NCBI RefSeq assembly: GCF_001589285.1
Contig: NZ_JEMA01000505.1
Span: forward strand, 27,151-63,788
Reading direction: 5' to 3'
Origin: Sorangium cellulosum
Lineage (GTDB): Bacteria; Myxococcota_A; Polyangia; Polyangiales; Polyangiaceae
DNA: 36,638 nucleotides
Shown here in pieces: positions 5,389 to 28,685 of this stretch (the first letter of the stretch is position 1; each line of letters begins with the position of its first letter). The notes under the pieces were generated by a model. That model did not search any database. It was not told the DNA's origin and saw nothing but the letters and a program-made list of their open reading frames with translations. The translations under genes were made by a program, and so were the position numbers.

Positions 5389-5395
5389 GATCCAC

Positions 5396-13189: not shown

Positions 13190-13632
13190 GCGACGCGCCG
13201 ATCCGCCCCCTGGAGCCTCCGCGCGTGGCTGTCGGCGCCGTCGTGCTCGAGCGCCGCGCGGACGCGTCCGGCGCGCCGCGCGTGGTCCTCGTCCGGCGCG
13301 CGCACCCTCCGCTCGAGGGCTCCTGGTCGCTCCCCGGCGGCCGCGTCGAGCCCGGTGAGCGGCTCGCCGACGCCCTCGCCCGCGAGATCCGCGAGGAGAC
13401 GGGCCTCGAGATCCGCGTCGGCCCGCTCGTGGAGGTCGTGGAGATCGTCGAGACTCCTTATCATTACGTGATCCTCGATTACCTCTGCGAGGCGGCCGGA
13501 GGCGTCCTCTCTCCAGGCGACGACGCCTCCGAGGTGGCCCTCGCGCCTGCCGCCGAGCTGCCGGCCTATGGCCTCACCGACGTCGCGCTCCGCGTGATCC
13601 GCCGGGCGCTGGCGATGGCAGCCGCGGGCTGA
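13186..13632 (+). CDS. Nudix hydrolase
   Basis: 148-aa protein with a complete Nudix box: G-x5-E-x7-REUxEExGU is read as [26 protein letters not shown], with the metal-binding REIREE glutamates in place. It hydrolyses a nucleoside diphosphate linked to another moiety. The general look (VAVGAVVLE..., [17 protein letters not shown]) is closest to ADP-ribose pyrophosphatase/MutT-like housecleaning enzymes, but substrate cannot be assigned. The GTG start sits in a GTGA overlap with the transglutaminase-like gene, so the two are translated in a coupled way although one product is exported and the other cytoplasmic. Confidence 0.92.
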
Positions 13633-13668
13633 GACAGCGCGGCTCAGGAAGAGCGCGACCTGGCGCAG

Positions 13669-13684
13669 CCCGCGCGGACGCGGG
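13669..13684 (+). terminator. Short hairpin downstream of Nudix gene
   Basis: CCCGCG, loop CGGA, CGCGGG: a 6-bp GC stem with a tetraloop 36 nt past the Nudix stop. No T-run follows, so terminator activity is uncertain. Confidence 0.35.
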
Positions 13685-13957
13685 ATGTGGCGCCGAGAGA
13701 GCGACTCTCCACGTCGCGCCTCGAGCGCCGAGCAGCAACAGTGTTATTTTACTGCTCTGTCGCCACGACATGCGCCTGCGACAGCCGGGGTGCACGGCAT
13801 CGGTGTGACCGTGGTCGGTGAAATGTGATGACGGCGGTTACTTCTGCGATAGCGGCGGTTCGGCGGAGTGATCGCGCGCGGTGCAAGCGACACCAATACG
13901 CGCTGGTCAGTTTGTATACATGCGGTGTGGTGCATTGTGTGGATTGCTTATCTTCTG

Positions 13958-13978
13958 CAGACGTCGTAAACCGGTCTG
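13958..13978 (+). promoter_or_regulatory. Inverted repeat, candidate TetR operator
   Basis: CAGAC (13958-13962) and GTCTG (13974-13978) form perfect 5-bp arms around an 11-nt spacer, ending three bases before ATG 13982. Placement at its own start is typical of TetR autorepression. The arms are short, so chance occurrence is possible. Confidence 0.35.
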
Positions 13979-13981
13979 TCT

Positions 13982-14782
13982 ATGAGCTCAACGCGAAGAG
14001 CGAGAAAGGAGGAACAGAAGGAGGAGCGTCGGAGGTTCATCATCGACGCAGCCTGGCGGCTGTTCCAGGAGACCCCGTATCCCGAGGTCACCATGGCGCA
14101 GGTCGCCGAGCGCACCAGGCTCGCAAAAGGTACGCTCTACCTGTATTTCACGACCAAAGAGGAGCTGTTCCTCGCCGTCGTTGATCAAGAGCTCGCGAAG
14201 TGGTTCGATGATGTGAATATCCATCTCGCGCATCTCGGCGACTCCCAGGGGGGCGCGGGCGCGCCGCACGCTCGGCCCTCGCGGGGGCGCCGCGGTGGCT
14301 CCTCGGCGTCCGGAGAGGACGCGGCCGCCAGCATCGCCTCGATCCTGTCGACGACCCTCGTCGCGCGCGGCGCGATGACGCGGTTGCTCACCATCGTGCA
14401 CAGCGTCCTCGAGCAGAACGTCAGCTACGAGGCCGCCCTCCGCTTCAAGCTCTCCCTGCTCGCGCACGTCGAGCGCACCGGGGCGCTGCTCGAGCGATGC
14501 CTGCCGTCGCTCGCCCCCGGTCAGGGCGGTCCGCTCCTCATCCGCATGTACGCCCTGCTCATCGGGATGCGCCAGGTCTGCGATCCCAGCGACGTGATTC
14601 GCGACATCCGCAGCCGGCCGGAGATGGGCCTCTTCCGGATCGACTTCGGCGAGGAGATCCGGGCCTCGTTCGCGATCCTCGTCAGCGGGGCGAGCGCGCC
14701 GCCGCCCCCCGTGTCCGAGCGGCTCGGCGCCCCGGTCCTGCGCGAGGTGACCTCAGTGGAGCCGCGCCGCCCGGAGGGGTGA
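13982..14782 (+). CDS. TetR/AcrR family transcriptional regulator
   Basis: 266-aa protein. Residues ~15-65 form the TetR DNA-binding domain: RRRFIIDAAWRLFQETPYPEVTM, then VAERTRLAKGTLYLYFTTKEELF, in which AKGTLYLYF is the recognition helix. The C-terminal ligand/dimer domain is interrupted by a low-complexity Gly/Ser/Arg insert at about residues 88-118, which makes the protein longer than the usual 190-220 aa. The start lies just behind a possible operator. The adjacent genes (upstream Nudix, convergent protease-hydrolase) give no obvious target; self-regulation is the safest guess. The gene ends 11 nt before the stop of the convergent gene. Confidence 0.9.
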   Translation: MSSTRRARKEEQKEERRRFIIDAAWRLFQETPYPEVTMAQVAERTRLAKGTLYLYFTTKEELFLAVVDQELAKWFDDVNIHLAHLGDSQGGAGAPHARPSRGRRGGSSASGEDAAASIASILSTTLVARGAMTRLLTIVHSVLEQNVSYEAALRFKLSLLAHVERTGALLERCLPSLAPGQGGPLLIRMYALLIGMRQVCDPSDVIRDIRSRPEMGLFRIDFGEEIRASFAILVSGASAPPPPVSERLGAPVLREVTSVEPRRPEG

Positions 14783-14793
14783 GGGGGGCTTGA

Positions 14794-16845
14794 TCACCAC
14801 GGATCCCGCGCCGACATCGGCGGAAGGCCATCGGCGAAGGGCTGGTTGAGGATGCGGGCGATCACCGACTTCCACGTGGTCGCGTCGCTGTCGAAGTCCT
14901 CGTGCCGCCGCGCCTCGGAGCCGTGGGGAGGAGGCCTCGTGTTGGGCCCCTTGATCCACTCCGCCCTCGGAAACACGGTGGGCCGATCCTCCCTGTCGTC
15001 CGTGAGGAGCGCGAGGACGTCGGCGTTCTCCGGATCGAGGAGCCCCGCCTCCATGCCGAGCAGCGAGACGCCGCTCGTCCCGGGCACCCGCGGGCGCCGC
15101 TCGAGCGCGTTCGAGACCAGGTAGAGGAGCGACCTTCCGTACACCTCGCAGTGGTCCTGGAGCTCCGCCTCGTCCGTGAGCGTGAACAGGGCGAAGCGGC
15201 GGACCATGCCGCTCTTGATCGAGGGCATGTACGTGTCGCGGAACGCGTCGATGGCGCTCGCCGGCGCGAGCAGCGCGAGCGACTCGATGGGGAGCCCGAG
15301 CCCGAGCTGGCCTCGCATCGGGCCCCCCTCGATCCGCTTGCCCTTCTCCGAGGTGACGAGCTGCACCAGCGGCGCGAGCAGGAACGTGCCGCTGGAGTGG
15401 GCGACCAGGTGGAGCTCGATCCTCGGATCCCTGTCCATCAGCGACGCGAGGCGGCCGATCATCTCGCGGAGACCGCCGTGATCGGCGTCCATCGTCGCGT
15501 CGCCCGCGGCGAGCTTCATGCGATCCCACTCGGCCTTGCCGCCCATGCGGCGGACGAGCGGCTCCAGCGCGTCGTCGCGCCGGTCGATCATGAAGCCGAA
15601 CGCCCGGGGATCGTAGCCGTCGTGGCGGCGACCCTCCGTGGCGCGGTGGAGGATCTCGAGCAGGCGCGGGTAGTGGTCGGTCTCCCAGAGGAGCTCGAGG
15701 GGGTAGATCTCGTGCCCGAGCAGCTTCGGCCGGAGGCGCGACATCCGGTTGATCGCGTCGATCTGCCGGCGCAGCCCGCCGCCCGCGATGAGAACGAGGC
15801 GGCGGCGCCTCCAGCTCTCGGTCGCGCTCATGAAGTCTTCTTCCATGATGATGCGGACGTCCTCCGAGGACGTGCCGTAGGCGCCGCGCTGCTGGAGCTG
15901 CCCGTGCATGTCGACGCTGATGAGGTGCGGCCGCAGGCTCGCGAACGTCCGGCTCGCCGACGTGAGCGGGCGCAGCGATCGCGGCTGGTTCAGGCGGATG
16001 GGGACGCCGAGGCGACCGACCCACGCGTCGAAGCCGTACTGGAGCCAGTCGTCGTAACAGAGCCGCCCGAAGCCGCTCTTGCCCCAGCCGAGACCCCAGG
16101 AGTTCTGGAGCCAGAAGCCCTCCGCGTCATACCCGACGATCGCGAAGGCGTGGCCTCCCCAGGGGGCGATGAAGGGGTTCGTCTTGTCGACCGGCGGGAT
16201 GATGCCGTTCTTCTGGGTGCCGTAGTACCAGCCGCTGAACGGGATGAGCGCCGAGGCCGCCACGATCCCGACCTCCGCGAGGGCGTTGTGCATCGCCGGG
16301 AGGTCCTTGTGGTTCACGCGCTGATACAGGCCGAGCGGGCGCAGCATCGCGTCGGCCGCGCGCTCCGGCGTGAGCGTGCCGTGGAGATCGTCCGGGTCCC
16401 ACGGCCAGTGCTCGTAGCCGCAGATACCGTGTTTGTGCCAGCCCTTCATGGCGCCCCTCAGGCTGGAGCCCCGCGCGTCGTCCTCGCCCGGGTATTCGTC
16501 GTAACGGCGCGCCATCGTATACACCATGTTCTGGCTCACGAGCCCGCCATCCGGGGACACCTTGCGCTTGCGCAGGAGGTAGTGGGCCACGGTGGCGACC
16601 GTGAAGCCGGTGCACCCGTTGTTCCTGCCCTGATCGAGCACGGGCACGCCGTAGTCCATGAAGCGCTCGGGCGGCATGACCGGAGGCACCTCCACCATCG
16701 TGGGGCGATAGAGGGTGTCCCGGAAATCGAGGACGTCGGCGCGAGCGTCGGTCGTGATGTCTCCGTAACGCTCGGAGAAACGCTCGGAATCGATCATGGT
16801 TTTCCGTCTCGTGAAGTCGCCGAGTGTCGCACGGCCCTCGCTCAT
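14794..16845 (-). CDS. Papain-like (C1) peptidase fused to alpha/beta-hydrolase-like domain
   Basis: 683-aa product. Residues ~60-285 are a C1 papain fold with all key residues: oxyanion Gln (Q72) in VLDQGRNNGCTGF, nucleophile C78, H232 in GGHAFAIVGYD and N248 in LQNSWGLGWGKSGFG. The usual prodomain is absent; only ~60 residues precede, and there is no signal peptide. A second part, about 345-600, begins RRRLVLIAGGGL and contains LHLVAHSSGTFLLAPL (S484 in AHSSG), a nucleophile elbow like that of alpha/beta hydrolases. It could hydrolyse peptides and also an ester or amide in one chain. An alternative start is the Met at 16797, which has a weak GGA-type ribosome site. Divergent from the class I isoprenoid-synthase-like gene, with 88 nt between. 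Confidence 0.8.
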   Translation of the reverse strand: MSEGRATLGDFTRRKTMIDSERFSERYGDITTDARADVLDFRDTLYRPTMVEVPPVMPPERFMDYGVPVLDQGRNNGCTGFTVATVAHYLLRKRKVSPDGGLVSQNMVYTMARRYDEYPGEDDARGSSLRGAMKGWHKHGICGYEHWPWDPDDLHGTLTPERAADAMLRPLGLYQRVNHKDLPAMHNALAEVGIVAASALIPFSGWYYGTQKNGIIPPVDKTNPFIAPWGGHAFAIVGYDAEGFWLQNSWGLGWGKSGFGRLCYDDWLQYGFDAWVGRLGVPIRLNQPRSLRPLTSASRTFASLRPHLISVDMHGQLQQRGAYGTSSEDVRIIMEEDFMSATESWRRRRLVLIAGGGLRRQIDAINRMSRLRPKLLGHEIYPLELLWETDHYPRLLEILHRATEGRRHDGYDPRAFGFMIDRRDDALEPLVRRMGGKAEWDRMKLAAGDATMDADHGGLREMIGRLASLMDRDPRIELHLVAHSSGTFLLAPLVQLVTSEKGKRIEGGPMRGQLGLGLPIESLALLAPASAIDAFRDTYMPSIKSGMVRRFALFTLTDEAELQDHCEVYGRSLLYLVSNALERRPRVPGTSGVSLLGMEAGLLDPENADVLALLTDDREDRPTVFPRAEWIKGPNTRPPPHGSEARRHEDFDSDATTWKSVIARILNQPFADGLPPMSARDPW

Positions 16846-16933: not shown

Positions 16934-18028
16934 ATGAGCGGGCAGGGAGGCGCAGCGGCAAGGTGCGAGGGCGCAAGGGGCGGTGTCGAGGCGTCGCTCG
17001 AGGCCGAGGTGCTGCGGCGGCTCGTGGCGCTCCGCGGCCGGCTCGGAGGCGAGCTCGGCGCGCTGTTCGACGAGCTCGCCGCGCGCCTCAGGCTCTTCGA
17101 GGGCGAGCCGGGCGAGGGCTACTTCTCGCACCCCATGGCGCTCCCGGTGCTCGAGCTGCCGCTCTGGGTCGCGACGCGGTTCGGCGCGCCAGCGCCGGGA
17201 GCTGGATCGCAAGGGCTCCCGTCGCTCGCCGTCGATCTCGCCGAGGCGGCGGCGGTCGGGTACCTGCACGTCCGGATCGAGGACGATCTGCTCGACGAAG
17301 GGCTGGGCGAGCCCGGCGCGGCGGTGCTCCTGTCCGGGGCGCTGTTCGCCCGACACCAGGCGCTGCTCGCCCGCTCGCTCCCCGGCGGGGGCGCCTTCTG
17401 GGATCTCTTCGAGGAGGTGTGGTTCGGGTACGGCCACGCGATGCTCCTCGAACGGCGGCTGCACCGGGGCGGCGGCCCGCGCGACGCCGAGGCGTTCCGC
17501 AGGGTGCTCGCCCGCTCTCGCCCGCTCGTGCTCCCGGCGGCCGCGGCGCTGTTCGCGCTGTCGCGGCCCGAGCGCCTCGCCGCCCTCGAGGCGTTCGTCT
17601 CCGCGCTCGCCGCGGCGCACCAGCTCTTCGCGGATCTGCTGCACGCCGAGAAGGATCGCGCGATCGGGAATGCGACGTACGTGCTCGCTCGGCTCGGCGC
17701 GCAGGTCGAACCGGGCGGCGATGGGCCGCCGCGGCCGGGTGGGGCCGCGCGAGCTGACGGCGCGCCCCCGCGTGATCCGGACGGGCGCGGCGCGACGGCG
17801 CTGCGCGCGGCGCTGTTCGCGCGCGGCGGCTTTGACGCCATCCTGGAGGAGGCGCGTTGTGAGCTCGCTCGCGCCGAGGAGGCCGCCGGGGCGCTCGAGC
17901 TACCGGAGGCCGTGCGCTTTTGCAAGGAGCGCGCGCAGTACATGACCGAGATCCAGCGGCGGGTATTCCTCGCGTTCTTCAGCGCGCTCGCCGGCGAGCC
18001 CGTCGCGAGCGCCGGCGCGCGGCGCTGA
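16934..18028 (+). CDS. Class I isoprenoid-synthase-like protein (DDxxD motif)
   Basis: 364-aa all-helical product. A DDLLD sequence at 117-121 within VGYLHVRIEDDLLDE has the form of the first Asp-rich (DDxxD) motif of trans-prenyltransferases and class I terpene synthases, which binds diphosphate through Mg2+. About 115 residues later HQLFADLLHAEKDRAIGN (229-246) sits where the second metal site would be, and resembles a degenerate NSE triad (D234, H237, D241). This spacing and helical content support an isoprenoid-synthase fold, but overall similarity to FPP/GGPP synthase is low; no chain-length region can be read. First gene of the cluster with the NHLP peptide and the class II cyclase-like protein. 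Residues 255-285 are a Gly/Pro/Arg-rich insertion. Function is inferred; substrate unknown. Confidence 0.7.
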   Translation: MSGQGGAAARCEGARGGVEASLEAEVLRRLVALRGRLGGELGALFDELAARLRLFEGEPGEGYFSHPMALPVLELPLWVATRFGAPAPGAGSQGLPSLAVDLAEAAAVGYLHVRIEDDLLDEGLGEPGAAVLLSGALFARHQALLARSLPGGGAFWDLFEEVWFGYGHAMLLERRLHRGGGPRDAEAFRRVLARSRPLVLPAAAALFALSRPERLAALEAFVSALAAAHQLFADLLHAEKDRAIGNATYVLARLGAQVEPGGDGPPRPGGAARADGAPPRDPDGRGATALRAALFARGGFDAILEEARCELARAEEAAGALELPEAVRFCKERAQYMTEIQRRVFLAFFSALAGEPVASAGARR

Positions 18029-18163
18029 GCCGACGCGGCCCGGACGCGAACCCACGCGCCGTGCGCCGCCGCGGCGACCCGATCAACGCGCGAGGATGCG
18101 CCTGCTTCCACTTGCTAGCCGTTTGGAGGTCTCCTAGCCTCCGGAGCGAGAAAGCGAGGAGTC
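18029..18163 (+). promoter_or_regulatory. Spacer upstream of NHLP-like peptide gene with nested GGAG/CTCC repeats
   Basis: 135 nt between the class I-like gene and the small peptide gene. Around 18125-18145 the sequence GGAGGTCTCCTAGCCTCCGG contains competing GGAGG/CCTCC pairings that could form a small hairpin. It could hold an internal promoter or an RNA-processing site that sets peptide levels apart from the first gene. Confidence 0.35.
18153..18160 (+). promoter_or_regulatory. Ribosome-binding site of the NHLP-like peptide
   Basis: GCGAGGAG (18153-18160) ends three bases before GTG 18164, with the GAGG core at about the right spacing. It supports the GTG start of this small gene. Confidence 0.55.
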
Positions 18164-18385
18164 GTGACAGCGAAGAAAACAGAGGCAGAGCTCATCGGTC
18201 GTGCCGTTGTGGATTCGAGCTTCCGTCAGCAGCTCCTCGCGAGCCCTGAGCGCACCATCGAGGCGGAGGGGTACGACGTCGCACCGGAGACGCTCCAGCG
18301 CATCCGGGACGCCGCGACCTCGACGCCCGAAGCGGTCGATGCGGCCATCGCGACCGCGGCGCGCGAGGGTGGAGTCGGTATGTGA
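18164..18385 (+). CDS. NHLP-clan small peptide (Os1348-like; nitrile-hydratase-like leader)
   Basis: 73-aa peptide. Residues ~10-48 show the pattern of nitrile-hydratase-alpha-like leader peptides: IGRAVVDSSFRQQLLASPERTIE, then EGYDV-x-PETLQRI. The hallmark is an 'A..D..FR..LL..P' helix followed by a short turn and a second helix. From memory this matches the Os1348-family NHLP-clan group; I could not check by search. RiPP leaders of this clan guide modifying enzymes to a C-terminal core. Here the C-terminal ~25 residues are Ala/Thr/Glu-rich, ending REGGVGM, with no obvious Cys/Ser/Thr core after the GG. GTG start with GAGG upstream; the stop overlaps the next gene (GTGA). No radical-SAM or YcaO enzyme is adjacent; isoprenoid enzymes are. 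Confidence 0.75.
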   Translation: MTAKKTEAELIGRAVVDSSFRQQLLASPERTIEAEGYDVAPETLQRIRDAATSTPEAVDAAIATAAREGGVGM

Positions 18386-20388
18386 CGCTGGCCGCTGACG
18401 CCGGGGCGACCGCCGCCTGGCCATGGCTCGATCCCGCCGACAAGGGGGTGTGCGAGCGCTCCTGGTCAGCGTTCCTGCGCGCGGGAGCCCTCTGGCGCGG
18501 CGACGCGGCGTGGGGGGCGCTCGCGATCGAGCGCAGCGTGGGCGCACCGTCGGGGCGCAGCATCCCCTGGGCTGGCTGGGCCCTGCGGATCTGCGGGCGC
18601 GTGTCGTCGCCCGCCGCGGCGTGTGACGCGGCCGTCGCGGTCGCGCTCGTCGCTGCCGGCGGCGTCGACGGCGCCCCCGACGCGCTCGCGCGCGGCGCGC
18701 TCGCCGGGCGCCTGCTGGCGCAGCACGCGGAGGAGGCGCGCGTCCACCGCTGGCTCCTCGGCCTGGCCGAGCTCTCGGAAGCGGCGTGGGAGCACAACCC
18801 GGTGGTCGCGGGCGCCGCGCTCGCGCGCGGCGAGGCGGGCGGCGCGCGCGAGGCGGTCGCCCTGTGGACGGCGGCTGCGCTCCTGGCGGGCGACGATCCC
18901 GCGCCCGCCCGCCGCTTCGGAGAGGCGGTGACAGCGCCGCTCTGGCTGCTCGACGGGCTCGTGCGCCTCTGGCTCGACCCGGCGGTGCCGGACCTCGCGG
19001 CGCCGACGCTCACGCCGCTCCTCGCGCTCTGGCTCCGCGACCCGGAGCTCGCCCCTCCGCTGCTCCGCGCCCTCGCGGGCGAGCGCGCGTCCCCCGTGCG
19101 CCGGCGCGAGATCCACAGCCTGCTCGCGGCCCGCCCGTACCGGGCCGCCCTCGCCGCGCGGGTGCGGGGCGCGCTCGCGTCGGCGCGCGAGATCGCGGCC
19201 AGCGCTCCTCGCGCGCAGCCGAGCGGGCGTGGCCTCGCCGAGGCGCAGCGCGAGTTCGTCGACGCGCTCGGAGAGCGCCTCCGCTTCTTCGAAGGGCTGA
19301 TGTCCTTCCGCGACGTGATCGGCGCCGGCGCGGCGCTCGGTCCGCCGCGCGCGCAGGGCGACCTCGCGCCGGCCGACGACGCGGGCGCGGACCTGCGGGC
19401 GGCGACCGCGTACCTCCTGGAAGCGACCCCCTGGCCGGAGTCCTGGGAAGTGCAGCGCTTCGGCGTGCTCGGATCGCGCGAGCAGCCCGTGGGGCACTGG
19501 TTCGTGCGGGCGACGATCCTGATGGCGCTGATCGAGATCGGGGAGGTCGGGCGCGACGTCCGCGCCGACGCCGCGGCGCTGCTCGACGAGATCCCGGCCG
19601 GCGAGCTCCGCTACTTCGGCGATTTCCGCGAGCTCCCGCCGGACGCGGACGACCTCGCGATCATCCTCCAGCTCATCGCGGCGACGGGCGCCGCCCGGGA
19701 GCGGGCGGAGACGTGGATCGAGGTCATGCTGGCCAACGTGGGCGACGATGGCGTCGTCCCGACCTGGTTCTACCGGGGGCCGGCGGGGCCGACCACGCCG
19801 GGCGTGGCGTGGGCCGGCGACGACTGCTCGGCGGTGCGGCTGAACCTGCTCGCAGGGCTGCTCTCGTTCGACGCGACGCGGTTCGCGCGGCTCATCGAAG
19901 CGAACGCGCGGCGCGTGCTCGACGCCGCCTCGCCGGACGAGATCCAGGGCGCCTGCTTCTATGACGGCCCGTACACGGACCTCGCGTTCCTCCGCTTCGC
20001 GCGCCTCTACCGGCAGCACCAGGAGAGATCGCTGGACGCGCCGCGCGCGGCCGAGATCGCCGCGGTCGAGGCCGCGGTCCTGTCGCGCATGCTCGGCGCG
20101 CAGCGGCTCGACGGCGGCTTCGGGACGCCGCTCTGCACGGCTGCGTGCCTCGAGGGGGCCGCGATGGCCGCGGCGCCGGACCCGCTGCTGATCGAGCGGG
20201 GGCTGCGCAACCTCGGCGAGCGCCAGCTCGTGGACGGCTCCTGGCCGGCCGAGCCGCTCTACCGGACGCCGATGAAGCACGGCCGCGAGGGGCACCACCA
20301 GGGCAGGGCGCTGACGACGGCGCTCTGCGCGCGCGGGTTCGCTGCGGCGCGGTCTCGGCTGCGGCGCGGAGGGGAGCGGCGCGCATGA
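18382..20388 (+). CDS. Class II terpene-cyclase-like protein (DxDD and QW-like motifs)
   Basis: 668-aa product. DADD at 421-424 (in LPPDADDLAIILQLIAATG) matches the DxDD acid motif with which squalene-hopene and class II diterpene cyclases protonate an alkene; the following helix also fits. QW-like repeats QRLDGGF (574-580) and QLVDGSW (615-621) are as in the alpha6-alpha6 barrels of the prenyltransferase/squalene-oxidase repeat clan. A second acidic site, AGDDCSA, lies at 478-484. The first ~270 residues are a separate helical domain that could be a degenerate isoprenoid-synthase fold (LWLLDGLVRLWLD then TLTPLLALWLRDP). Overlaps the peptide gene upstream (GTGA) and the cyclase gene downstream (ATGA). 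No signal or membrane segment. Substrate unknown. Confidence 0.7.
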   Translation: MTLAADAGATAAWPWLDPADKGVCERSWSAFLRAGALWRGDAAWGALAIERSVGAPSGRSIPWAGWALRICGRVSSPAAACDAAVAVALVAAGGVDGAPDALARGALAGRLLAQHAEEARVHRWLLGLAELSEAAWEHNPVVAGAALARGEAGGAREAVALWTAAALLAGDDPAPARRFGEAVTAPLWLLDGLVRLWLDPAVPDLAAPTLTPLLALWLRDPELAPPLLRALAGERASPVRRREIHSLLAARPYRAALAARVRGALASAREIAASAPRAQPSGRGLAEAQREFVDALGERLRFFEGLMSFRDVIGAGAALGPPRAQGDLAPADDAGADLRAATAYLLEATPWPESWEVQRFGVLGSREQPVGHWFVRATILMALIEIGEVGRDVRADAAALLDEIPAGELRYFGDFRELPPDADDLAIILQLIAATGAARERAETWIEVMLANVGDDGVVPTWFYRGPAGPTTPGVAWAGDDCSAVRLNLLAGLLSFDATRFARLIEANARRVLDAASPDEIQGACFYDGPYTDLAFLRFARLYRQHQERSLDAPRAAEIAAVEAAVLSRMLGAQRLDGGFGTPLCTAACLEGAAMAAAPDPLLIERGLRNLGERQLVDGSWPAEPLYRTPMKHGREGHHQGRALTTALCARGFAAARSRLRRGGERRA

Positions 20389-21824
20389 GCATCGAGAAAT
20401 CACCCGAGATCGTGCGGATCATCCAGGCGCAGGAGATGCGCGGCGAGCAGATCGTGAACCACGTCCGGTTCGTGTTCGCGCTGCTCAGCGTCTACACGTT
20501 CACGCACGTGTGGACGGTCAACACGCCGGCCGCCAACCAGATCTTCGCGATCCAGATCGGCGGCTACCTCGTCTACTCGCTCCTGCTCTACGCGTTCTTC
20601 CGCCTGCGCCCCGACGTCTACGTGAGCTGGCTCAAGTACGTGAGCATCTTCGTCGACCTCGCGCTCCTGACGCTCACGGCGCTGGCGACGGCGAGGAACC
20701 ACTCCGGGATGATCGAGTACTTCTCGAGCTACCTGGCGACGGTCTACGTGCTCTGGAACCTGATGTCGGGCTTCCGCTACAGCCTCGCGGCGTGCCTGTA
20801 CTCGGCGGGGCTGTCGGCCCTCTTCAACGCGGTCGTGCTCGCGGCCACGGTCTGGACCGGCGCGATCCCGATCAGCGCGGTGTCCGTCTACGGCCAGAAC
20901 GCCATCAACATCGCGGACCAGTGCCAGCAGATCCTCTTCGTCGCGCTCCCGGGCGTCGTCGCCGGCATCATCGCCCGCATCTCGCGCAACCTGCTCCTCC
21001 GCGCCGAGGTGGAGTCCATGGCCCGCGTCCGGCTCGAGCGCGAGAAGCAGGAGCTCGGCAGGTACCTCTCGAAGGACCTCGTCGACTTCGTCCTCTCCGA
21101 TCCGGGGCGGCTCAAGCTGGGCGGGACGCGCCGGCACGTCTCGGTGATGTTCACCGACATCCGCAACTTCACCCCGCTCACCGAGTCGGTCGAGCCGGAG
21201 GTCGTGGTCTCGTTCCTGAACGAGTACTTCACGGAGATGGTCGAGATCGTGTTCCGGTACGGGGGCACGCTCGACAAGTACATCGGCGACGGCCTGATGG
21301 CGGTGTTCGGCGCGCCGCTGTCGGTCGAGGACGCGCCGAAGCGCGCCGTTGTCGCGGCGATCGAGATGGTGCAGGCCCTCGAGCGCATGAACCAGCGGCA
21401 GCTCCTCGGCTGCGCCGAGATCAAGATGGGCGTCGGGATCGCGACCGGCACCGTCATCTCCGGCAACATCGGGTCGCTCCAGCGCATGGAGTACACCTGC
21501 ATCGGGGATACGGTGAACACGGCCTCGCGCCTCGAGCAGTTCAACAAGGAGCTCGGCTCCAAGATCATCATCTGCCAGGCGACGTACGCGACGCTCGACG
21601 ACTGCATCCCGGCGCAGCCGACCGGCGCCCTGAGCATCCGCGGCAAGAGCCGCCAGGTCCACCCCTACATCGTGGACTACCAGGAGCTCTCGCCGCAGCG
21701 CCTCGAGGAGCTCCGGCGAGAGTTCCTCCGGGCGCCCCGCCCCATCGAGTCGATGCCGCCGCGGGCCGAGGTCGCGCGCGCGCCGGCCGCGTGGCGCAGC
21801 ACCGATCGCGAAGGCGCTCAGTAG
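20385..21824 (+). CDS. Membrane adenylate cyclase (class III)
   Basis: 479-aa protein. Residues ~25-200 hold about six hydrophobic membrane segments of unknown sensory type; a helical linker follows (~202-245), then a class III catalytic domain to ~430. Metal-binding Asp are D258 in FTDIRNFT and D302 in YIGDGLMAVFG; K298 and D375 (CIGDTVNTASRLE) are the adenine-selecting Lys/Asp, so the product should be cAMP rather than cGMP; N378 and R382 are the transition-state residues. All are intact. The start overlaps the class II cyclase-like stop (ATGA), so the membrane sensor is translationally coupled to the terpenoid-like genes. The C-terminal ~40 residues are Pro/Arg-rich and disordered. Transcription ends in the palindrome just downstream. 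Confidence 0.92.
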   Translation: MSIEKSPEIVRIIQAQEMRGEQIVNHVRFVFALLSVYTFTHVWTVNTPAANQIFAIQIGGYLVYSLLLYAFFRLRPDVYVSWLKYVSIFVDLALLTLTALATARNHSGMIEYFSSYLATVYVLWNLMSGFRYSLAACLYSAGLSALFNAVVLAATVWTGAIPISAVSVYGQNAINIADQCQQILFVALPGVVAGIIARISRNLLLRAEVESMARVRLEREKQELGRYLSKDLVDFVLSDPGRLKLGGTRRHVSVMFTDIRNFTPLTESVEPEVVVSFLNEYFTEMVEIVFRYGGTLDKYIGDGLMAVFGAPLSVEDAPKRAVVAAIEMVQALERMNQRQLLGCAEIKMGVGIATGTVISGNIGSLQRMEYTCIGDTVNTASRLEQFNKELGSKIIICQATYATLDDCIPAQPTGALSIRGKSRQVHPYIVDYQELSPQRLEELRREFLRAPRPIESMPPRAEVARAPAAWRSTDREGAQ

Positions 21825-21849: not shown

Positions 21850-23604
21850 TCACGAGGGCGTCGCGCGGAAGCGCCGCACCCGCGCCGAGCCGGGGCCGCC
21901 GTCCTGGGTCGACAGGCCGAGCGCCGTGCGCGCGGGCGCGTGCAGGCGCTGGAGGACGCGATCGAGCAGGCGGAGCGCGCCGTCGCTCATCTTCACGCCG
22001 CGCGGCGAGCGGTAGCCGAACGCGACGCCGTCCACGACCTTGTAGGCGTTCTCCGTGGGCGAGGCGGGGCGCATCTCGACGACCAGCGCGCCGTCGCGCG
22101 TCTTCATGATGACGACGATCTCGCCCGGGCGCGCCGAGGCCTCGACGAACGTCCAGCCGCCGGAGGTCGCCTCCTTGATCCCGAGCTCGAGCACGCGCTG
22201 CAGGTCCTGCCCCGCCGGCGCGAGCGTCGTCGCGCCCTCCACCCGGATCTCCCCGCCTGGCGGGACCACGCCGCTCCCGAGCGGCATCGCCGGCCGCCGC
22301 ATCTCGCGCGGTCCGGGGAACGACCACATGTCCGGCGTGATCTCCCCGCCCTCGCGGTACGCCATCTCGATGAGGCGGCTGCGCTCGCGGGACAGCGCGT
22401 CCTCGGACCAGCCGAGGCAGGAGCGCATCATCAGCGTGAACGGGTCGAAGCGGAGCTCGAACGACGCGGGCGCGCGGGTCATGAGGTCGTCCGGGAGGAC
22501 GAGGCTGTGCAGGATGCGGACCTTGCACGGGAGCTCGCGCGCGCGCTCGAGCGTGCGCCGGAACGTGACGGGACCGTCGCCCGGGAGGCCGAGGAGGATG
22601 TCCACCTCGATGTCCGTGAACGTCGAGAGCTCCTCGATCACCTTCGCGAACTTCGACTCGCGGAAGGGGCGCTGCGTGCCGTCGCCGGTGTCCTTGGTGA
22701 GCGGCGGCAGCCGCGCGCCGAGGGACACGCGCGCGACGCCGCGGAGGAACTCCAGGTGCTCGTCGTGCGCGTGCTCCGGATCGATCGACGCCATCAGCGC
22801 CGCCTGCTTGAAGAAGCCGACCTGCTTCTCCGCGGCCACGAGGTTCCGGAACGCCTCCGCGTTCAGGTTGAGCGGGGCGTCCACGATCTGCACGCCCGGG
22901 GCGCCCGCGGCGAGCAGCGCGCTCAGCTCCTCGACGAGGTAGGCCTCCGAGAAGACGCCGGCGCCGGCGTCGCCCGTCGAGACGCCGCAGGTCGGGCAGC
23001 TCATGACGCCGCCGCGGCTGAGCTCGAGCGGGACGATGCGATCGGTCGGGAGCAGCTTCATCCGGATCGGCGACGGGAGCTCGTCGGGCGCCACGTGGGG
23101 CGCTTCGCCCGTCGAGACCCAGCCATCGGCCGTGGGAACGTGCAGCCCCGGCACGCCGCGCAGCGCCTCGGGGGAGCGATCGCTCAGGCGGACGATGTTC
23201 CGGAACGTGAGATCGTTGCCGTGCACGAGGGCGTCGATGCTGGCGGCGGCGTCGCGCCAGGGCGCGAGCGCGAACAGCGCGGGGCGCGCGAGGGGGCCGC
23301 AGAGGACGATCGTGCGCCCTGGCCGGTTGCGCTGCAGGTGGCGCGCGACCTCGATGAACGTGGGGAAGGACCAGACGTGCGCGGCGAGGCCGACCACGTC
23401 GGCGTCCACGGTCTCGACCTCGGCGACCCACGCGTCGAGATCCCTCGTCTGCGCTTCGATCACCTGGATCGGTACGCCGGCGAGCTCCGGATCGGCGAGC
23501 AATGAGGCTTCGACACGACGGATTCCATGGCTGAACGGCGCTCCCCCTCCGTCCGGCATGGTTGGCTCCATCGCGAGTAGCGCGACGCGGCGTTCGCCAG
23601 GCAT
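21850..23604 (-). CDS. B12-binding / radical-SAM-like protein with incomplete cluster motif
   Basis: 584-aa product. Residues ~35-125 look like a cobalamin-binding Rossmann domain (DADVVGLAAHVWSFPTFIE, then PGRTIVLCGP). The region from ~190 resembles a radical-SAM TIM barrel: ELSRGG, GVQIVDAPLNLNAEAFRNLV and DIEVDILLGLPGDGPVTFRRTLERA are the expected strand motifs. The CX3CX2C cluster motif is incomplete: it reads G199-x3-C203-x2-C206, so the first Cys is Gly and normal [4Fe-4S] ligation would be missing a ligand. The C-terminal ~150 residues are an extra domain. It may be a non-catalytic paralogue or use another ligand. The frame extends upstream, but ATG 23604 (MPGERRVALLAMEP) starts the conserved part. 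Convergent with the adenylate cyclase. Confidence 0.78.
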   Translation of the reverse strand: MPGERRVALLAMEPTMPDGGGAPFSHGIRRVEASLLADPELAGVPIQVIEAQTRDLDAWVAEVETVDADVVGLAAHVWSFPTFIEVARHLQRNRPGRTIVLCGPLARPALFALAPWRDAAASIDALVHGNDLTFRNIVRLSDRSPEALRGVPGLHVPTADGWVSTGEAPHVAPDELPSPIRMKLLPTDRIVPLELSRGGVMSCPTCGVSTGDAGAGVFSEAYLVEELSALLAAGAPGVQIVDAPLNLNAEAFRNLVAAEKQVGFFKQAALMASIDPEHAHDEHLEFLRGVARVSLGARLPPLTKDTGDGTQRPFRESKFAKVIEELSTFTDIEVDILLGLPGDGPVTFRRTLERARELPCKVRILHSLVLPDDLMTRAPASFELRFDPFTLMMRSCLGWSEDALSRERSRLIEMAYREGGEITPDMWSFPGPREMRRPAMPLGSGVVPPGGEIRVEGATTLAPAGQDLQRVLELGIKEATSGGWTFVEASARPGEIVVIMKTRDGALVVEMRPASPTENAYKVVDGVAFGYRSPRGVKMSDGALRLLDRVLQRLHAPARTALGLSTQDGGPGSARVRRFRATPS

Positions 23605-24009
23605 CCATGGGAGTCTACCAGGGTGTCTCCCCTGTCGGGGAGTCCGTTCGCGCTCTCTATTTGCTCGCGCTTCCCGTCCGCCCTCCTTGCATCCGGAGCG
23701 CGATCGGGCTTTCATACTGCCAGGGGCGGGAGCGGGGAAAAGGGACGTGCCGGACCGGCGGAAGCGGCGGTCTGCCTCGCTGCGCGCTTCGTCGGCCATG
23801 GTCGACGTGGCGCGCCGCGGCGAGCGCTCCGGCGCGCGCGGATCGGCTCGCCCGGGTGATCGTCACGCCGGGCGCATGATCGAGGTTGCCCGCGCTGTGC
23901 CGGTCGCTGGCGGGGCGCGCGTCGCATCGGCGTCGCTCCTCCCGGCATGGGAGAGAGCGGCGCGCCGTCCTGGGAACGGCGCTGCTGCCAAGGAGGGGCG
24001 AGGGGAGCC
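23605..24009. other. Intergenic region upstream of radical-SAM-like and receiver genes
   Basis: 405 nt of divergent intergenic sequence. TTGCAT (23686-23691) and CATACT some 20 bases on are the only promoter-like hexamers I noticed on the plus strand, with non-ideal spacing. No gene with recognisable features. Confidence 0.4.
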
Positions 24010-24396
24010 ATGCCTGGCAAGCACGTGATCCTGGTTGCAGAGGACGACGTTGACACTGCGGCGATGCTGGAGGAGCTCCTGACGCTGGAAGGGTACGAGG
24101 TCGAGATGACCGCGACAGCGCGCGCGGCGCTGGACGCGCTCGCGGACCGGCGCTTTCACGCGGTCCTGCTCGACCTGACCATGCCGGGCATGACCACGGA
24201 CCGGTTCGTCGCCGAGCTCGCGCAGCTCGGCACGCCCTCTCCGCTCATGATCTTCTCGGCCCGCCTGCCGCACGAGATGCAGGCGATCGCCGAGCGGCTG
24301 AATGCGGCCGCGCTCATCCCGAAGCCGGTGGACATCGATGTGCTGCTGAGCACCCTCGCGCGGGTGGTGCTCGCCGCCAGGGGCGAGCGGGGTTGA
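24010..24396 (+). CDS. Single-domain response regulator (receiver only)
   Basis: 128-aa CheY-like receiver without an output domain. The acidic pocket is E11-D12-D13, the phospho-acceptor is D55 in LLDLTMPGM, S83 takes the switch Ser/Thr place and K105 (IPKP) is the conserved Lys. It should be phosphorylated by a histidine kinase and act by protein contact. No kinase is adjacent, so the partner is elsewhere. The start has GGGGAG four bases upstream. It lies 0.5 kb from another stand-alone receiver, and the two differ enough not to be a recent duplication. Confidence 0.92.
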   Translation: MPGKHVILVAEDDVDTAAMLEELLTLEGYEVEMTATARAALDALADRRFHAVLLDLTMPGMTTDRFVAELAQLGTPSPLMIFSARLPHEMQAIAERLNAAALIPKPVDIDVLLSTLARVVLAARGERG

Positions 24397-24878: not shown

Positions 24879-25250
24879 GTGCCTGCAACTCCCTTGAAGA
24901 GGATCCTCGTTGTCGATGATGATCCGGATATTCGAGAGACCCTCGCCGAGCTCCTGCAGGAGGAGGGGTACGCCGTGTCCTCGGCCGCCCACGGCGGCGA
25001 GGCGCTCTGCGCGCTTCGAACGGATCCGAGGCCTGATCTCATCCTGCTTGACCTCATGATGCCCATCATGGATGGCTGGCAGTTCAGGGCAGAGCAGAAG
25101 AAAGACCCGGATCTCGCCTCGATCCCGGTGGTGATCATCTCGGCGACGGGGCGCGACGAGTTCGTGTCCTCGCTCGGCGCGGCGCAGTTCCTGAAGAAGC
25201 CGATCAACCTCGAACAGCTCCTCGCCGCGGTCGAACAGCACTGCCGGTGA
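24879..25250 (+). CDS. Single-domain response regulator (receiver only)
   Basis: 123-aa CheY-like receiver. The acidic triad is D13-D14-D15, with phospho-acceptor D58 in LLDLMMPIMDGW, T90 in ISAT and K107 in FLKKP; the fold is complete. GTG 24879 is taken as start (PATPLKRILVVDDD); a TTG three codons in is a possible alternative. No output domain, so it probably relays phosphate or binds a partner. It lies 7 nt before a gamma-glutamylcyclotransferase-like gene in the same direction, so those two may be cotranscribed. Confidence 0.9.
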   Translation: MPATPLKRILVVDDDPDIRETLAELLQEEGYAVSSAAHGGEALCALRTDPRPDLILLDLMMPIMDGWQFRAEQKKDPDLASIPVVIISATGRDEFVSSLGAAQFLKKPINLEQLLAAVEQHCR

Positions 25251-25619: not shown

Positions 25620-28600
25620 TCAGTCGGCGCCGGCGCGGCGCGCTGGACGTAGCCCCGGAGGCGCGGCGTCGTCCTTCTCAACGCCCGTCCTGTCCTCGAC
25701 GACGAGCAGCAGGGCCGGGAGCTCGCCCTCGTCGGCCTGGAGCCGAAAGGCAGAGATCGACAGCGTCTTTCGCCCCACGCGCGCGAGCACGGCCTCGAAG
25801 CGGAAGTCGATCAGCGAGGCGCTGCGGTGGAGCACGTCCCGGAGCCGCTGCTCGATCTGCGGGGTGTTCCAGCCCGCGTCGATGGCCGAGATCGGCAGCC
25901 CCTCGAGGTCCCCGAGCGAGATCATGAACATGTCGCAGTAGCGTCGGGTGGCCGTTCGGATCCGGAGCTCGCCATCGAGCAGGAGGAACGGGTGGCGCAG
26001 GACCTCGAAGACGGCGGAGATGCGGCCGCGCGCGCCGGCGATCTCGCGCGCGGCGCGCCTCAGCGCGTCGCCCTCCAGCCAGCAGATCACCGCGCCGTCG
26101 ACCTCGTTTCCGGCGGTCGGGGAGGGGCGCACCCGCATCACGTAGGAGCGGCCGTCGCGATCCTCGACCTGTCGCTCGACGGTGCTCCTCGTGGCGAGCG
26201 CCTCGGCGACGATCGGCGCGATGTCGGCCCAGCCCCTCGGCTTCACGTCGAGGATGGACCTGCCCACGTCGCTCGCGGCGAGGCCGAGCAGCCTGTCCGC
26301 CGCGCCGGTGAAGCGGCGGATCCTGAGGTCCGCGTCGACCATCACCATCGGGATGTTGACGCTGGCGAGGAGGTCCCGCAGGTCGTCGTTCGCGAAGCCG
26401 AGCGTGACGTTGCTGCTGTGGAGCTCCTCGTTGATGGTCGCCAGCTCCTGGTTCGCCGATCGGAGCTCCTCCCGGGAGGCCTCGAGCGCGTCGTTCATCC
26501 TGTGCAGCTCGTCGTTGCTCGCGAAGAGCTCCTCGTTCGTCGCCTCGAGCTCATCGATGATCGACTGGAGGTACTCCCTCGTGGTGACGAGCTCCCTCCG
26601 GAGCTGGACGATCTCCAGGTCCTTCTGGGGGGCGCCCTGGGGCGGGTCGCTGCCCGCGTCGAGCCTAGCCGCGCCCGAGTCGGAGAAGACGACGAGGAAG
26701 CAGCGCCCCTGAGGGAGCCGCACCTTGAGCGGCCACACCTCGATGTCGACGTACCGGAGCTTCTCTCCCAGCCTGACCTTGATCTGCTCCTTCCGCGCCA
26801 TCGTCCACGAGCTCATCGCCGCGTCGATGGCGGCCCGGAGGCCGAGCAGGAGCCCTTCCCGGGCCATCTTGAAGAGGTGCAGGCTGGCGTCGCCCGGCGC
26901 CGGCTCGAGGTAGGGCCCGGTCTTGCCCCGGAACTGGACGATCTGCATGTCCTCGTCGACCACAACGCCGGCAGGGGCGTAGTGCGTCATGACGATGGCG
27001 TCCGCCTCGCTGCGCACCGCGTCCATGCCGAGCCCCTCGGAATACCGCTGCTTCTCCGCCATGGGCGCGGGAGCGCTCGGCTGGGCGGGCGCGGCGAGCC
27101 CGAGCGAGTAGGCCGCGTCGGGCGCGGCGCGCTTGCAGAAGATCCTGTGGGTCCTGTCCACGATCCCGAACAGGTCGGGCACCGTGCTGATGCTCTCGGA
27201 CGAGCCGAGGAGCAGGAAGCCCGTCGGCTTGAGGGCGTGGTGGAACGTGTGCAGCAGCCGGCGCTGCAAGCTCGGCTCCAGGTAGATCATCAGGTTGCGG
27301 CAGCTGATCAGATCGAGCTTCGAGAGGGGCGGGGCGGTCGTGGCGTCGTGGCGCGAGAAGACGCAGAGATCGCGGACCGATCTGTTGACCTGGAAGCCGC
27401 CTTGCACCCGGACGAAGAAGCGGCGCAGCCGGCTGGGCGAGACGTCGACCGACAGGCCCTCGACGTAGATCCCGGCCCGCGCTTGCTCGATGGCGGCCTC
27501 GCTCAGGTCGGTGCCGAAGATCTGGACGGCGCTGTCGCTCGCGTCGGCTTCGAGGAACTCGAGCAGCGAGATCGCGAGCGAGTAGACCTCCTCGCCCGTC
27601 GAGCACCCCGGCACCCAGACGCGAACAGGGGAGTCGTGCGGCCTGTTGTGCATGAGCACCGGGAGCACATGGGTCTTCAGCGCGGCGAACGCCCCCGGAT
27701 CGCGGAAGAACGTCGTGACCTTGATCAGGAGATCCTGGTAGAGCGCCTCGATCTCGCCCGGGTGCGCCTGCACGTGATCCAGGTACTCCTGGAGGCTCCC
27801 GATCCTGTGGAGCGTCATCCGCCGCTGGATGCGGCGCTTCAGCGTGTTCTTCTTGTAGTGGCTGAAATCCACGCCCACTGTCGCGTGCAGCAACCTGAAG
27901 AGCTTGCCGAGGACCGGGTCGACGCCGAGGGACGGGCCCTGCGTGAGCCACGGCGCGAGCGCGTGTCCGGGGCGGCCCATCCTCACGAGCTCCGCCGCGA
28001 TCTCCTCGACGCCGAGGATGAAATCGATGCCCCCGGCGGCGATGGCGTTGCGCGGGAGCGCCGGTCGGTCGGCCGTGCGTGGGTCCTCCGCGAACGTGAC
28101 CCCGCCCTCTGCCTTCACGTCCTTCATGCCGACGGCACCGTCGCTCCCGGCGCCGGATAGCGCGACGGCGACTGCGCTCGAGCCCAGCTCGCTCGCGAGC
28201 GAGCGCAGGAAGATGTCTGCGGGGCTCGGGCCGCCGTCGCCCCTCGGCGCGACCTCGACGGTCACGCCGTCCAGCGTCGCTCGCGCGTCCGGCGGGAGGA
28301 CCTGGACGTAACCAGGCATGAGCCTCGTCCCGGATCGAAGCTCGGCCACGGGGAGCGGGCTGCTCTGCATGGCGAGCTCGAGGAGCGGCGTCTCCCCGGG
28401 ATCCGCGTTGTAGATCAGCACGAGGGAGAGCCACGTATCTCGGCTCGGCAGCCGCCGGAGGAGCTCCGCGACGGCGCCGCGCCCACCGGCCGCTGCGACG
28501 ACGCCGACGACGAGACAGCGCTGCTCACCCCCGGGGTGCTGCTCGCCCGCTCTGGACGACGCGCCGGCGCCCCGGGACGGCTCGAGCGCGCGCCTCGGCG

Positions 28601-28685
28601 CGGCCGCCCTGCCCGGCGGGTGCGCGGCGTCGCTCTGGGCCGTTGCCCTGAGTTGCGTCCGGCGTGACTTCTTGTGTTCGGGCAT
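25620..28685 (-). CDS. CheB-CheR-coiled-coil-PAS-PAS signalling protein with inactive-looking CheB domain
   Basis: 1021-aa product. A charged N-terminal tail is followed by a CheB-like methylesterase domain (~55-235), in which the catalytic Ser of GASAGG is Ala (A65, in GVVAAAGG) and the His of QHL is Asn (N93); only the Asp of LSGAGSDG (D182) remains. Next is a CheR methyltransferase (~255-520) with an intact SAM site VWVPGCSTGEE (356-366) and SCRNLMIYL (461-469), a further region to ~690, a coiled coil (~690-775) with ELEATNEELFASNDEL-type repeats, and two PAS domains (~775-870 and 885-1000). No histidine kinase follows. It likely methylates glutamates in receptors or regulators in response to PAS ligands. 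ATG 28685 is chosen; AAGGAG lies rather far upstream. Confidence 0.88.
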   Translation of the reverse strand: MPEHKKSRRTQLRATAQSDAAHPPGRAAAPRRALEPSRGAGASSRAGEQHPGGEQRCLVVGVVAAAGGRGAVAELLRRLPSRDTWLSLVLIYNADPGETPLLELAMQSSPLPVAELRSGTRLMPGYVQVLPPDARATLDGVTVEVAPRGDGGPSPADIFLRSLASELGSSAVAVALSGAGSDGAVGMKDVKAEGGVTFAEDPRTADRPALPRNAIAAGGIDFILGVEEIAAELVRMGRPGHALAPWLTQGPSLGVDPVLGKLFRLLHATVGVDFSHYKKNTLKRRIQRRMTLHRIGSLQEYLDHVQAHPGEIEALYQDLLIKVTTFFRDPGAFAALKTHVLPVLMHNRPHDSPVRVWVPGCSTGEEVYSLAISLLEFLEADASDSAVQIFGTDLSEAAIEQARAGIYVEGLSVDVSPSRLRRFFVRVQGGFQVNRSVRDLCVFSRHDATTAPPLSKLDLISCRNLMIYLEPSLQRRLLHTFHHALKPTGFLLLGSSESISTVPDLFGIVDRTHRIFCKRAAPDAAYSLGLAAPAQPSAPAPMAEKQRYSEGLGMDAVRSEADAIVMTHYAPAGVVVDEDMQIVQFRGKTGPYLEPAPGDASLHLFKMAREGLLLGLRAAIDAAMSSWTMARKEQIKVRLGEKLRYVDIEVWPLKVRLPQGRCFLVVFSDSGAARLDAGSDPPQGAPQKDLEIVQLRRELVTTREYLQSIIDELEATNEELFASNDELHRMNDALEASREELRSANQELATINEELHSSNVTLGFANDDLRDLLASVNIPMVMVDADLRIRRFTGAADRLLGLAASDVGRSILDVKPRGWADIAPIVAEALATRSTVERQVEDRDGRSYVMRVRPSPTAGNEVDGAVICWLEGDALRRAAREIAGARGRISAVFEVLRHPFLLLDGELRIRTATRRYCDMFMISLGDLEGLPISAIDAGWNTPQIEQRLRDVLHRSASLIDFRFEAVLARVGRKTLSISAFRLQADEGELPALLLVVEDRTGVEKDDAAPPGLRPARRAGAD

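Follow-up and report, generated by a model that had tools for sequence, protein, structure and literature searches.

An operon of isoprenoid enzymes, a peptide and a nucleotide cyclase

A 36,638-nucleotide stretch of the Sorangium cellulosum genome (assembly GCF_001589285.1, contig NZ_JEMA01000505.1, positions 27,151 to 63,788; here called the window) carries a four-gene operon that is real and conserved. Its genes, numbered 1 to 4, encode a protein with a predicted class I isoprenoid fold, a small NHLP-clan peptide, a protein with a predicted class II terpene cyclase fold and a membrane class III nucleotide cyclase. With about even confidence, we read the operon as an autocrine signaling system built on a terpenoid-modified, ribosomally synthesized and post-translationally modified peptide (RiPP), working like PalQ/PalX/PalP and ComQXPA. 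Gene 1 would bind the NHLP-type leader and transfer or activate an isoprenoid diphosphate onto the 73-amino-acid peptide, after which the class II domain of gene 3 would protonate and cyclize the isoprenoid. A papain-like protease encoded beside the operon, or in relatives an M50 or other peptidase, would trim the peptide, and the membrane part of gene 4 would sense the product and make cyclic AMP.

Genes 2 and 3 overlap by 4 nucleotides (GTGA, 18382 to 18385), as do genes 3 and 4 (ATGA, 20385 to 20388). An earlier note on this DNA had described the four genes with their order, overlaps and motifs, and all of these were found in the sequence: DDLLD occupies residues 117 to 121 of gene 1, and gene 3 contains DADD (residues 421 to 424) together with QW-like repeats recognized by reading. 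The ratio of nonsynonymous to synonymous substitution rates (dN/dS) was 0.37, 0.22, 0.48 and 0.45 for genes 1 to 4, respectively, indicating purifying selection. It was calculated from five Sorangium sequences per gene, four in the case of gene 3.

Table 1. Features of the operon and its flank (window positions)
Feature	Position	Strand	Description
Gene 1	16934..18028	+	364 amino acids, predicted class I trans-isoprenyl diphosphate synthase fold
Gene 2	18164..18385	+	73 amino acids, NHLP-clan PF14407 (Os1348-type) small peptide
Gene 3	18382..20388	+	668 amino acids, predicted class II terpene cyclase C-half; N-half probably degenerate prenyl-synthase-like
Gene 4	20385..21824	+	479 amino acids, membrane class III nucleotide cyclase
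Papain-like (C1) protease, divergent	14794..16797	-	667 amino acids, probable fifth component
Conserved noncoding 32-bp element	18110..18141	+	Precedes peptide gene, possible regulatory site

The peptide and its upstream spacer

Gene 2 matched PF14407 with 88.1 bits against a cutoff of 48 (E = 4.8e-25) and the NCBIfam family NF038399 with 46.8 bits against 40. The earlier designation of the product as an NHLP-type peptide holds for these two families; for TIGR03793 (leader_NHLP), the score of 26.5 bits against 50.9 was below cutoff. A profile of the peptides matched PDB entry 6lk7, annotated as a nitrile hydratase alpha chain of 85 amino acids, with E = 4.4e-6; we take this entry to be the Os1348 structure. 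The ComX family PF05952 was not listed for the window peptide at E ≤ 10. No obvious core residues were seen on reading its last 15 amino acids.

The spacer between gene 1 and the peptide gene is variable except for the 32-bp element, which four of the five Sorangium loci, the window counted, share without a mismatch and the fifth with one. It was absent from the other loci compared, with up to 9 mismatches allowed. An internal sigma-70 promoter at this element was rejected, as no consensus match was present. RNA folding of the spacer was weakly unusual (z = -1.84, with 7 of 200 shuffles as good).

Gene 1 resembles class I prenyl synthases in predicted fold but lacks canonical elongation motifs

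Gene 1 had no significant Pfam match and no NCBIfam match of its own. An AlphaFold2 model computed from 25 sequences reached a predicted local distance difference test score (pLDDT) of 86.8 and a predicted template modeling score of 0.88. Foldseek returned 16 matches for this model at E ≤ 1e-3, 15 of them to prenyl or polyprenyl diphosphate synthases and the remaining match to the prenyltransferase Ord1. The template modeling scores to the target ranged from 0.49 to 0.70 among these best 16, with polyprenyl synthases on top. Ord1 is a tryptophan-acting prenyltransferase (PMC13290415). In the 25-row alignment, D117, D121, D234 and D241 are kept in every row, and residue 118 is D in 16 and N in 9, leaving an invariant DxxxD in the aligned sequences. 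By its modeled fold, gene 1 is likely to be a prenyltransferase or terpene synthase of the trans-isoprenyl diphosphate synthase (trans-IDS) type.

Against PDB, the gene 1 profile found prenyl synthases weakly, at E = 0.2 and above, ranked below chance thioesterase matches, and PF00348 was not listed at E ≤ 10 in the Pfam scan. GGKRxRP is a motif of chain-elongating prenyl synthases; a similar motif occurred in none of the 25 rows, and RRG occurred in one. The idea that gene 1 is simply an ordinary prenyl synthase was rejected on the missing PF00348 match and the missing canonical elongation motifs. Polyprenyl synthases of family PF00348 are encoded elsewhere in the 11.9-Mb genome, four of them, on other contigs. 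An overall match between the profiles of gene 1 and full-length gene 3 was also rejected (hhalign probability of 0.3 per cent).

Gene 3 combines a class II cyclase half with a motif-less N-half

As a single sequence, gene 3 had no family match in library scans. Its profile, searched against PDB, matched 7xq4 (E = 2.4e-11), squalene-hopene cyclase (1.7e-7) and drimenol synthase (2.8e-7). The DADD of gene 3 aligned with the 7xq4 sequence DVDD in a sub-alignment that scores weakly by itself. The predicted structure had a mean pLDDT of 65.7, with residues from about 370 to 660 mostly confident and the first 150 poor, and its best fold matches were the monodomain cyclases 8pak (E = 3.2e-8) and 8paj (3.4e-7) and MstE (6sbc, 4.7e-7). 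We gave no weight to the Foldseek match at rank 50 (decaprenyl diphosphate synthase, E = 0.11). DxD is kept in all 17 aligned members of the family, and the fourth residue, D in the window, varies. The C-half of gene 3 is thus predicted to have a class II terpene cyclase fold with a DxDD motif. Structure prediction, one of the checks that the earlier note had set for its proposal, gave isoprenoid-enzyme folds for both gene 1 and this half of gene 3.

The N-half may have a different history. PF00348 scored 45 bits in the N-half of the gene 3 relative at locus L161, 39 at L163, 26.7 at L164 and 19.7 at L047, the cutoff being 27 (loci and genomes are given by our L and G numbers). A DDxxD-like motif was present within the first 300 residues of all five such fused proteins (L161 to L164 and L047) and of none of 12 unfused gene 3 proteins, of which eleven came from peptide-bearing sets and one was the stand-alone L046. 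Compared with the fused prenyl-synthase halves, the untrimmed window N-half gave E = 1.4e-7; 4 of the 12 were below 1e-4, and hhalign returned 97.5 per cent at E = 8e-12. As a control, the shared class II start was trimmed off at two alternative cuts (Z = 20000). The window N-half retained E values of 1.1e-6 to 2.8e-6, three of the 11 others fell between 0.00014 and 0.016, and the rest were at 3 or above or unlisted. The best reversed decoys had E values of 1.5 to 2.7, with 2.7 at the cut that gave 1.1e-6 for the window. The reverse search was weak: one of five reached 0.002 at one cut, and none did at the other. In hhalign, the probability was 25 to 55 per cent. The claim of homology is weakened by this control because most other N-halves and the reverse comparisons were weak. 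Independent support for a worn-out prenyl synthase comes from locus L195, labeled Anaerolineae, where the open reading frame of gene 3 is gene 1-like over 13366 to 14190 (E = 1.2e-15, and 1.9e-20 in a second search).

We consider it probable, on sequence comparison, that the N-half is a degenerate prenyl-synthase domain. Given the fused relatives, the L195 reading frame and the loss of the DDxxD-like motif from the N-half, gene 3 was probably once bifunctional, with class I and class II activities, the former now being provided by gene 1. The odds that we give to the signaling system do not draw on this assignment of the N-half.

The membrane cyclase and the adjacent protease

The earlier note had called gene 4 a class III cyclase, and PF00211 was matched at residues 250 to 424 with 100 bits. 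A simple hydropathy scan placed four segments in its hydrophobic N-terminal part, at about residues 25 to 205. Residues D258, K298, D302, D375, N378 and R382 were invariant in 11 of 11 rows, and correspond to functional residues of adenylyl cyclases. Among the Sorangium loci, dN/dS was 0.53 for the membrane part compared with 0.31 for the catalytic part.

Absent from the earlier note was the divergent papain-like protease. It matched PF00112 with 30.7 bits against 20.7 (scored on the 16845 start), and its dN/dS was 0.16. Long homologues were present in 4 of 159 other genomes of a 160-genome sample, and three of the four adjoin either the peptide (G243 and G282) or a gene 1 homologue (G206), the fourth being in G260. 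The protease domain alone was matched in four further genomes of the sample. These neighborhoods make the protease a probable fifth component.

The gene set recurs in varied arrangements

Loci were fetched and their genes called with a simple codon-usage caller. In single-sequence searches of 183 genomes of the order, gene 1 was found in 14 and gene 3 in 15, and in 12 genomes, the window's own counted, gene 1, the peptide and gene 3 lay within a few kilobases of each other. The genes do co-occur, which was another check set by the earlier note. The order gene 1-peptide-gene 3-cyclase was kept in four other Sorangium-like genomes, gene 3 being in two frames in one. In S. cellulosum So0157-2 (L038/L182), the split of gene 3 over two frames reflects a pseudogene or an error in the sequence.

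A second genus (six genomes, two of them named Polyangium) displays another arrangement, in which the cyclase and gene 1, overlapping by 4 nucleotides, face the peptide and gene 3. In the version of the set from this second genus (L040), a divergent gene for a GNAT-type acyltransferase (PF13480) lies at 4720 to 5901, about 480 bases from the cyclase. Genome G165, of the window's genus, has the order peptide, gene 3, gene 1, an M78-like protein (below cutoff) and an ATP-grasp protein, with no gene 4 homologue in the 18 kb read. The other matches in the order, which were weak or missed a partner, were gene 3 only in G079, G003 and G008 and a partial gene 1 in G086; G092 (= L198) carries gene 1, peptide and cyclase domains, and no gene 3 was found there. 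The arrangement of the window is found again in f34, a distant family of Myxococcota (L082, L083 and L085). Within this family, L081 starts 641 bases before the peptide and shows no gene 1, and genes 1 and 3 of L084 are broken by stop codons.

Among 377 Myxococcota genomes, PF14407 was found in 49 (58 places), gene 1 in 41 and gene 3 in 60, the last mostly as weak partial matches; gene 3 places weaker than about 1e-13 were mostly short stretches and were left out of counts. A PF14407 peptide lay within about 2 kb at 23 of 36 gene 1 places with E < 1e-20. Since the gene 1 profile included six rows chosen for an adjoining PF14407 peptide (L082, L083, L085, L086, L089 and L095), the count was repeated with these places removed, giving 17 of 30. 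At the 10 PF14407 places above the curated cutoff, gene 3 adjoins in all 10, once in broken form, and gene 1 in 9. Gene 3 had 17 places at E < 1e-30, and 10 of them adjoin a PF14407 peptide. The others are the fused, kinase-linked places in G237, G212, G229 and G273 (L161 to L164), that in G003 (L047, where gene 3 is fused and the second gene after it is histidine-kinase-like), G320:C89 and G429:C90.

A named genome collection contributed 24 gene 1 loci, which within 10 kb on either side carried the peptide in 20 cases, a class III cyclase in 19 and gene 3 in 8. In this collection, the closest named relatives of the window at the operon were Sorangium. The collection overlaps the 377-genome set; six loci were unmatched in it (L187, L189, L193, L194, L195 and L204), with the peptide in 5 of 6 and the cyclase in 4 of 6. 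Among the 24 loci are ones from metagenome-assembled genomes labeled Acidimicrobiia (L187), Armatimonadota (L193) and Anaerolineae (L195). In the phylum of the Anaerolineae genome, any match was found in 11 of 151 genomes, mostly weak. A gene 1 relative under the label of a Klebsiella pneumoniae metagenome-assembled genome (L184) probably reflects a mislabeled record.

Two loci were assigned to another PF14407 system and left out. L093 (7524 to 11749) and L094 (1047 to 5146) encode a protein of about 158 amino acids, a PF14407 peptide, a protein of about 350 and one of about 800 amino acids, the last with HExxH by reading in L093. No gene 1 or gene 3 homologue was found in either locus.

Swapped partners and a kinase-linked variant

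Partners of the set change from locus to locus. The gene 1-like domain is fused to radical SAM in L165 (7071 to 8981), L174 (6800 to 8788) and L176 (6700 to 8541), and in L173 a TIGR03975 RiPP maturase (E = 2.8e-98) overlaps the gene 1 relative by 4 nucleotides. M50 peptidases recur beside the set, above cutoff in L085 and L089, barely so in L040 and just below it in L082; the M50 peptidases of L082 and L089 contain a PqqD-like region, itself below cutoff. Methyltransferases occur as partners in L088, L091, L095 and L189. In L091, a WelO5-family (halogenase-like) protein (883 to 1752, E = 1.5e-57) is encoded between the NHLP-clan peptide and the methyltransferase. Cyclic nucleotide-binding proteins adjoin the set in L040, L088 and L195, and the cyclase domains of L088 and L095 sit within large proteins that have an AAA ATPase domain.

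Four loci, L161 to L164, exhibit a kinase-linked variant: a peptide of 38 to 45 amino acids is followed by a prenyl synthase-class II fusion and then by a histidine kinase of 481 to 491 amino acids. The peptides, that of L164 found by frame reading, end in RTVTL(F/Y) plus one or two residues, and the three kinases scanned have hydrophobic N-terminal segments. In function, these sets would parallel ComX/ComQ/ComP, with the cyclase domain as an addition. They possibly represent a second, kinase-coupled terpenoid-peptide system.

Comparison with described systems

The closest described set is PalQ/PalX/PalP of Paenibacillus alvei, in which a trans-IDS-fold prenyltransferase is combined with an NHLP peptide and a histidine kinase (PMC10853753), and ComQXPA is the older model. 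Like the window, the former unites an isoprene-synthase-fold prenyltransferase, an NHLP-type precursor and a signaling gene in one cluster. However, PalX ends in tryptophan (Trp) and PalP is a histidine kinase, whereas the window has a Trp-free peptide and, as putative sensor, a class III cyclase. The class II terpene cyclase and the papain-like protease are extra in the window; the likeness to PalQ is one of description. ComQXPA shares the order of prenyl enzyme, short precursor (52 to 73 amino acids for ComX) and membrane sensor, and where a putative promoter precedes comX, the window has its conserved element (PMC4008528). In contrast to ComQXPA, gene 1 lacks PF00348, the peptide lacks PF05952 and Trp, and a PF00211 cyclase takes the place of the histidine kinase. 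No ComA-like gene follows the operon, and two receiver-only response regulators are found further downstream. The ComQXPA census of 2014 listed none beyond Firmicutes (PMC4008528).

In ChrPC and NctPC, a peptide prenyltransferase domain is joined to a terpene cyclase domain, a precedent for peptide prenylation followed by terpene cyclization; NctPC has a C domain reported to be MstE-like (PMC13290415), and MstE likewise appeared in the fold search with gene 3. The window, likened to them by description, differs in having the class I motif in a separate gene, an N-half without the motif and no Trp acceptor. Os1348-type proteins share the PF14407 family and a predicted peptidase nearby, whereas their context includes a GNAT acetyltransferase and transporters, and the words terpene and cyclase are absent from PMC7726476.

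We did not file the window under PalQ/PalX/PalP, ComQXPA or ChrPC/NctPC because it has neither the Trp and histidine kinase of the first two nor the domain fusion of the third. It is set apart by a peptide free of Trp and cysteine (Cys), a class II cyclase encoded on its own and, at the sensor position, a nucleotide cyclase. The earlier note knew of no described pathway with this set. PalQ/PalX/PalP, ComQXPA and ChrPC/NctPC come close enough to qualify that statement, and no description of the exact four-part set was recognized in the literature covered, which leaves out preprints and most subscription journals.

Weighing the explanations

RiPP logic is suggested by the radical SAM fusions of gene 1-like domains, the overlapping RiPP maturase and the adjoining M50 peptidases, and signal logic by the histidine kinases of L161 to L164 and the cyclic nucleotide-binding proteins. 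The class I motif found in fused and missing from unfused gene 3 proteins points to a division of labor between class I and class II enzymes, and PalQ, which acts on an NHLP peptide (PMC10853753), provides a precedent. Treating the peptide as substrate or carrier and the cyclase as signal output, as the earlier note did, is the best available reading, and one that we infer. In its specific form, the split class I/class II pair would place a cyclized terpene on a Trp- and Cys-free NHLP peptide, at another side chain or a terminus, with the membrane adenylate cyclase as receptor in a form of cyclic AMP signaling present in Myxococcota and a few other phyla. We hold this form only tentatively and regard it as somewhat improbable.

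Several observations count against the signaling system. The main one, with respect to attachment, is the missing acceptor: the characterized trans-IDS-like peptide prenyltransferases all use Trp (PMC13290415), and the window peptide contains neither Trp nor Cys, for which reason prenylation at either residue was rejected. Among 36 tabulated peptides, Trp occurs in one (L198) and Cys in eight, being C terminal in four (L089, L169, L180 and L198, the last ending in VVQWC). The peptide tail is its most constrained part in the five Sorangium loci (dN/dS of 0.10 for residues 45 to 73 and 0.21 for residues 9 to 44), unlike the variable ComX. Co-occurrence is incomplete: a PF14407 peptide is missing from the vicinity of 13 of the 36 gene 1 places, and a broader peptide profile, itself built partly from peptides adjoining gene 1, found none at the 12 of them examined. 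Likewise, 35 of the 58 PF14407 places lack a neighboring gene 1. No transporter was detected among the 12 neighboring window genes scanned.

The lack of conserved Trp or Cys would be explained if genes 1 and 3 made a free terpenoid that stays unattached to the peptide and is itself sensed by the cyclase, with the folded NHLP-type peptide serving the enzymes as adaptor, scaffold or regulator. WelO5-family proteins and methyltransferases can act on small terpenoids, and both are among the partners. Os1348, a PF14407 protein, is dimeric in the crystal (PMC7726476). We consider this explanation unlikely, since the radical SAM fusions, the maturase overlap and the M50 peptidases suggest a processed precursor, and PalQ works on a peptide of the same clan (PMC10853753). 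The link of Os1348 to antibiotic activity (PMC7726476) would instead fit a secreted terpenoid-peptide, for example an antibiotic, with no signaling loop and with the cyclase regulating production in response to another cue. Such a role could accommodate the cyclase domains embedded in AAA ATPase-containing proteins; it is rendered quite unlikely by the frequency of the cyclase as a partner (19 of 24 loci) and by the histidine kinase that stands in its place in the fused-enzyme loci. The predicted folds are those of common isoprenoid enzymes, so that genes 1 and 3 might belong to ordinary hopanoid or polyprenyl metabolism, with the peptide and cyclase as chance neighbors. However, the set recurs in distant families and with its genes variously ordered, the canonical motifs of chain elongation are missing from gene 1, and the genome has its four PF00348 synthases elsewhere, making this highly improbable.

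If the terpenoid-RiPP signaling system is confirmed, prenylated-peptide signaling of the ComX/PalX kind would extend beyond Firmicutes and histidine kinases, to Myxococcota and to cyclic AMP, and terpene cyclization by a separate enzyme would be added to it. PF14407 peptides without an obvious core would gain a testable function, and terpenoid-peptide hybrids would be obtainable from the sets in which WelO5-like proteins, methyltransferases and radical SAM proteins are the partners.

Genes downstream of the operon

A B12-binding/radical-SAM-like protein is encoded on the minus strand at 21850 to 23799 (PF02310, 24.8 bits versus 32.1; HemN-like, E about 7e-4). Its CxxxCxxC motif is apparently incomplete, and it occupies the same position in five Sorangium loci with a dN/dS of 0.20. 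Beyond it lie the two receiver-only response regulators, at 24010 to 24396 and 24894 to 25250 on the plus strand, and a CheB/CheR/PAS protein at 25620 to 28685 on the minus strand. Both response regulators and the CheB/CheR/PAS protein recur in most Sorangium loci read.

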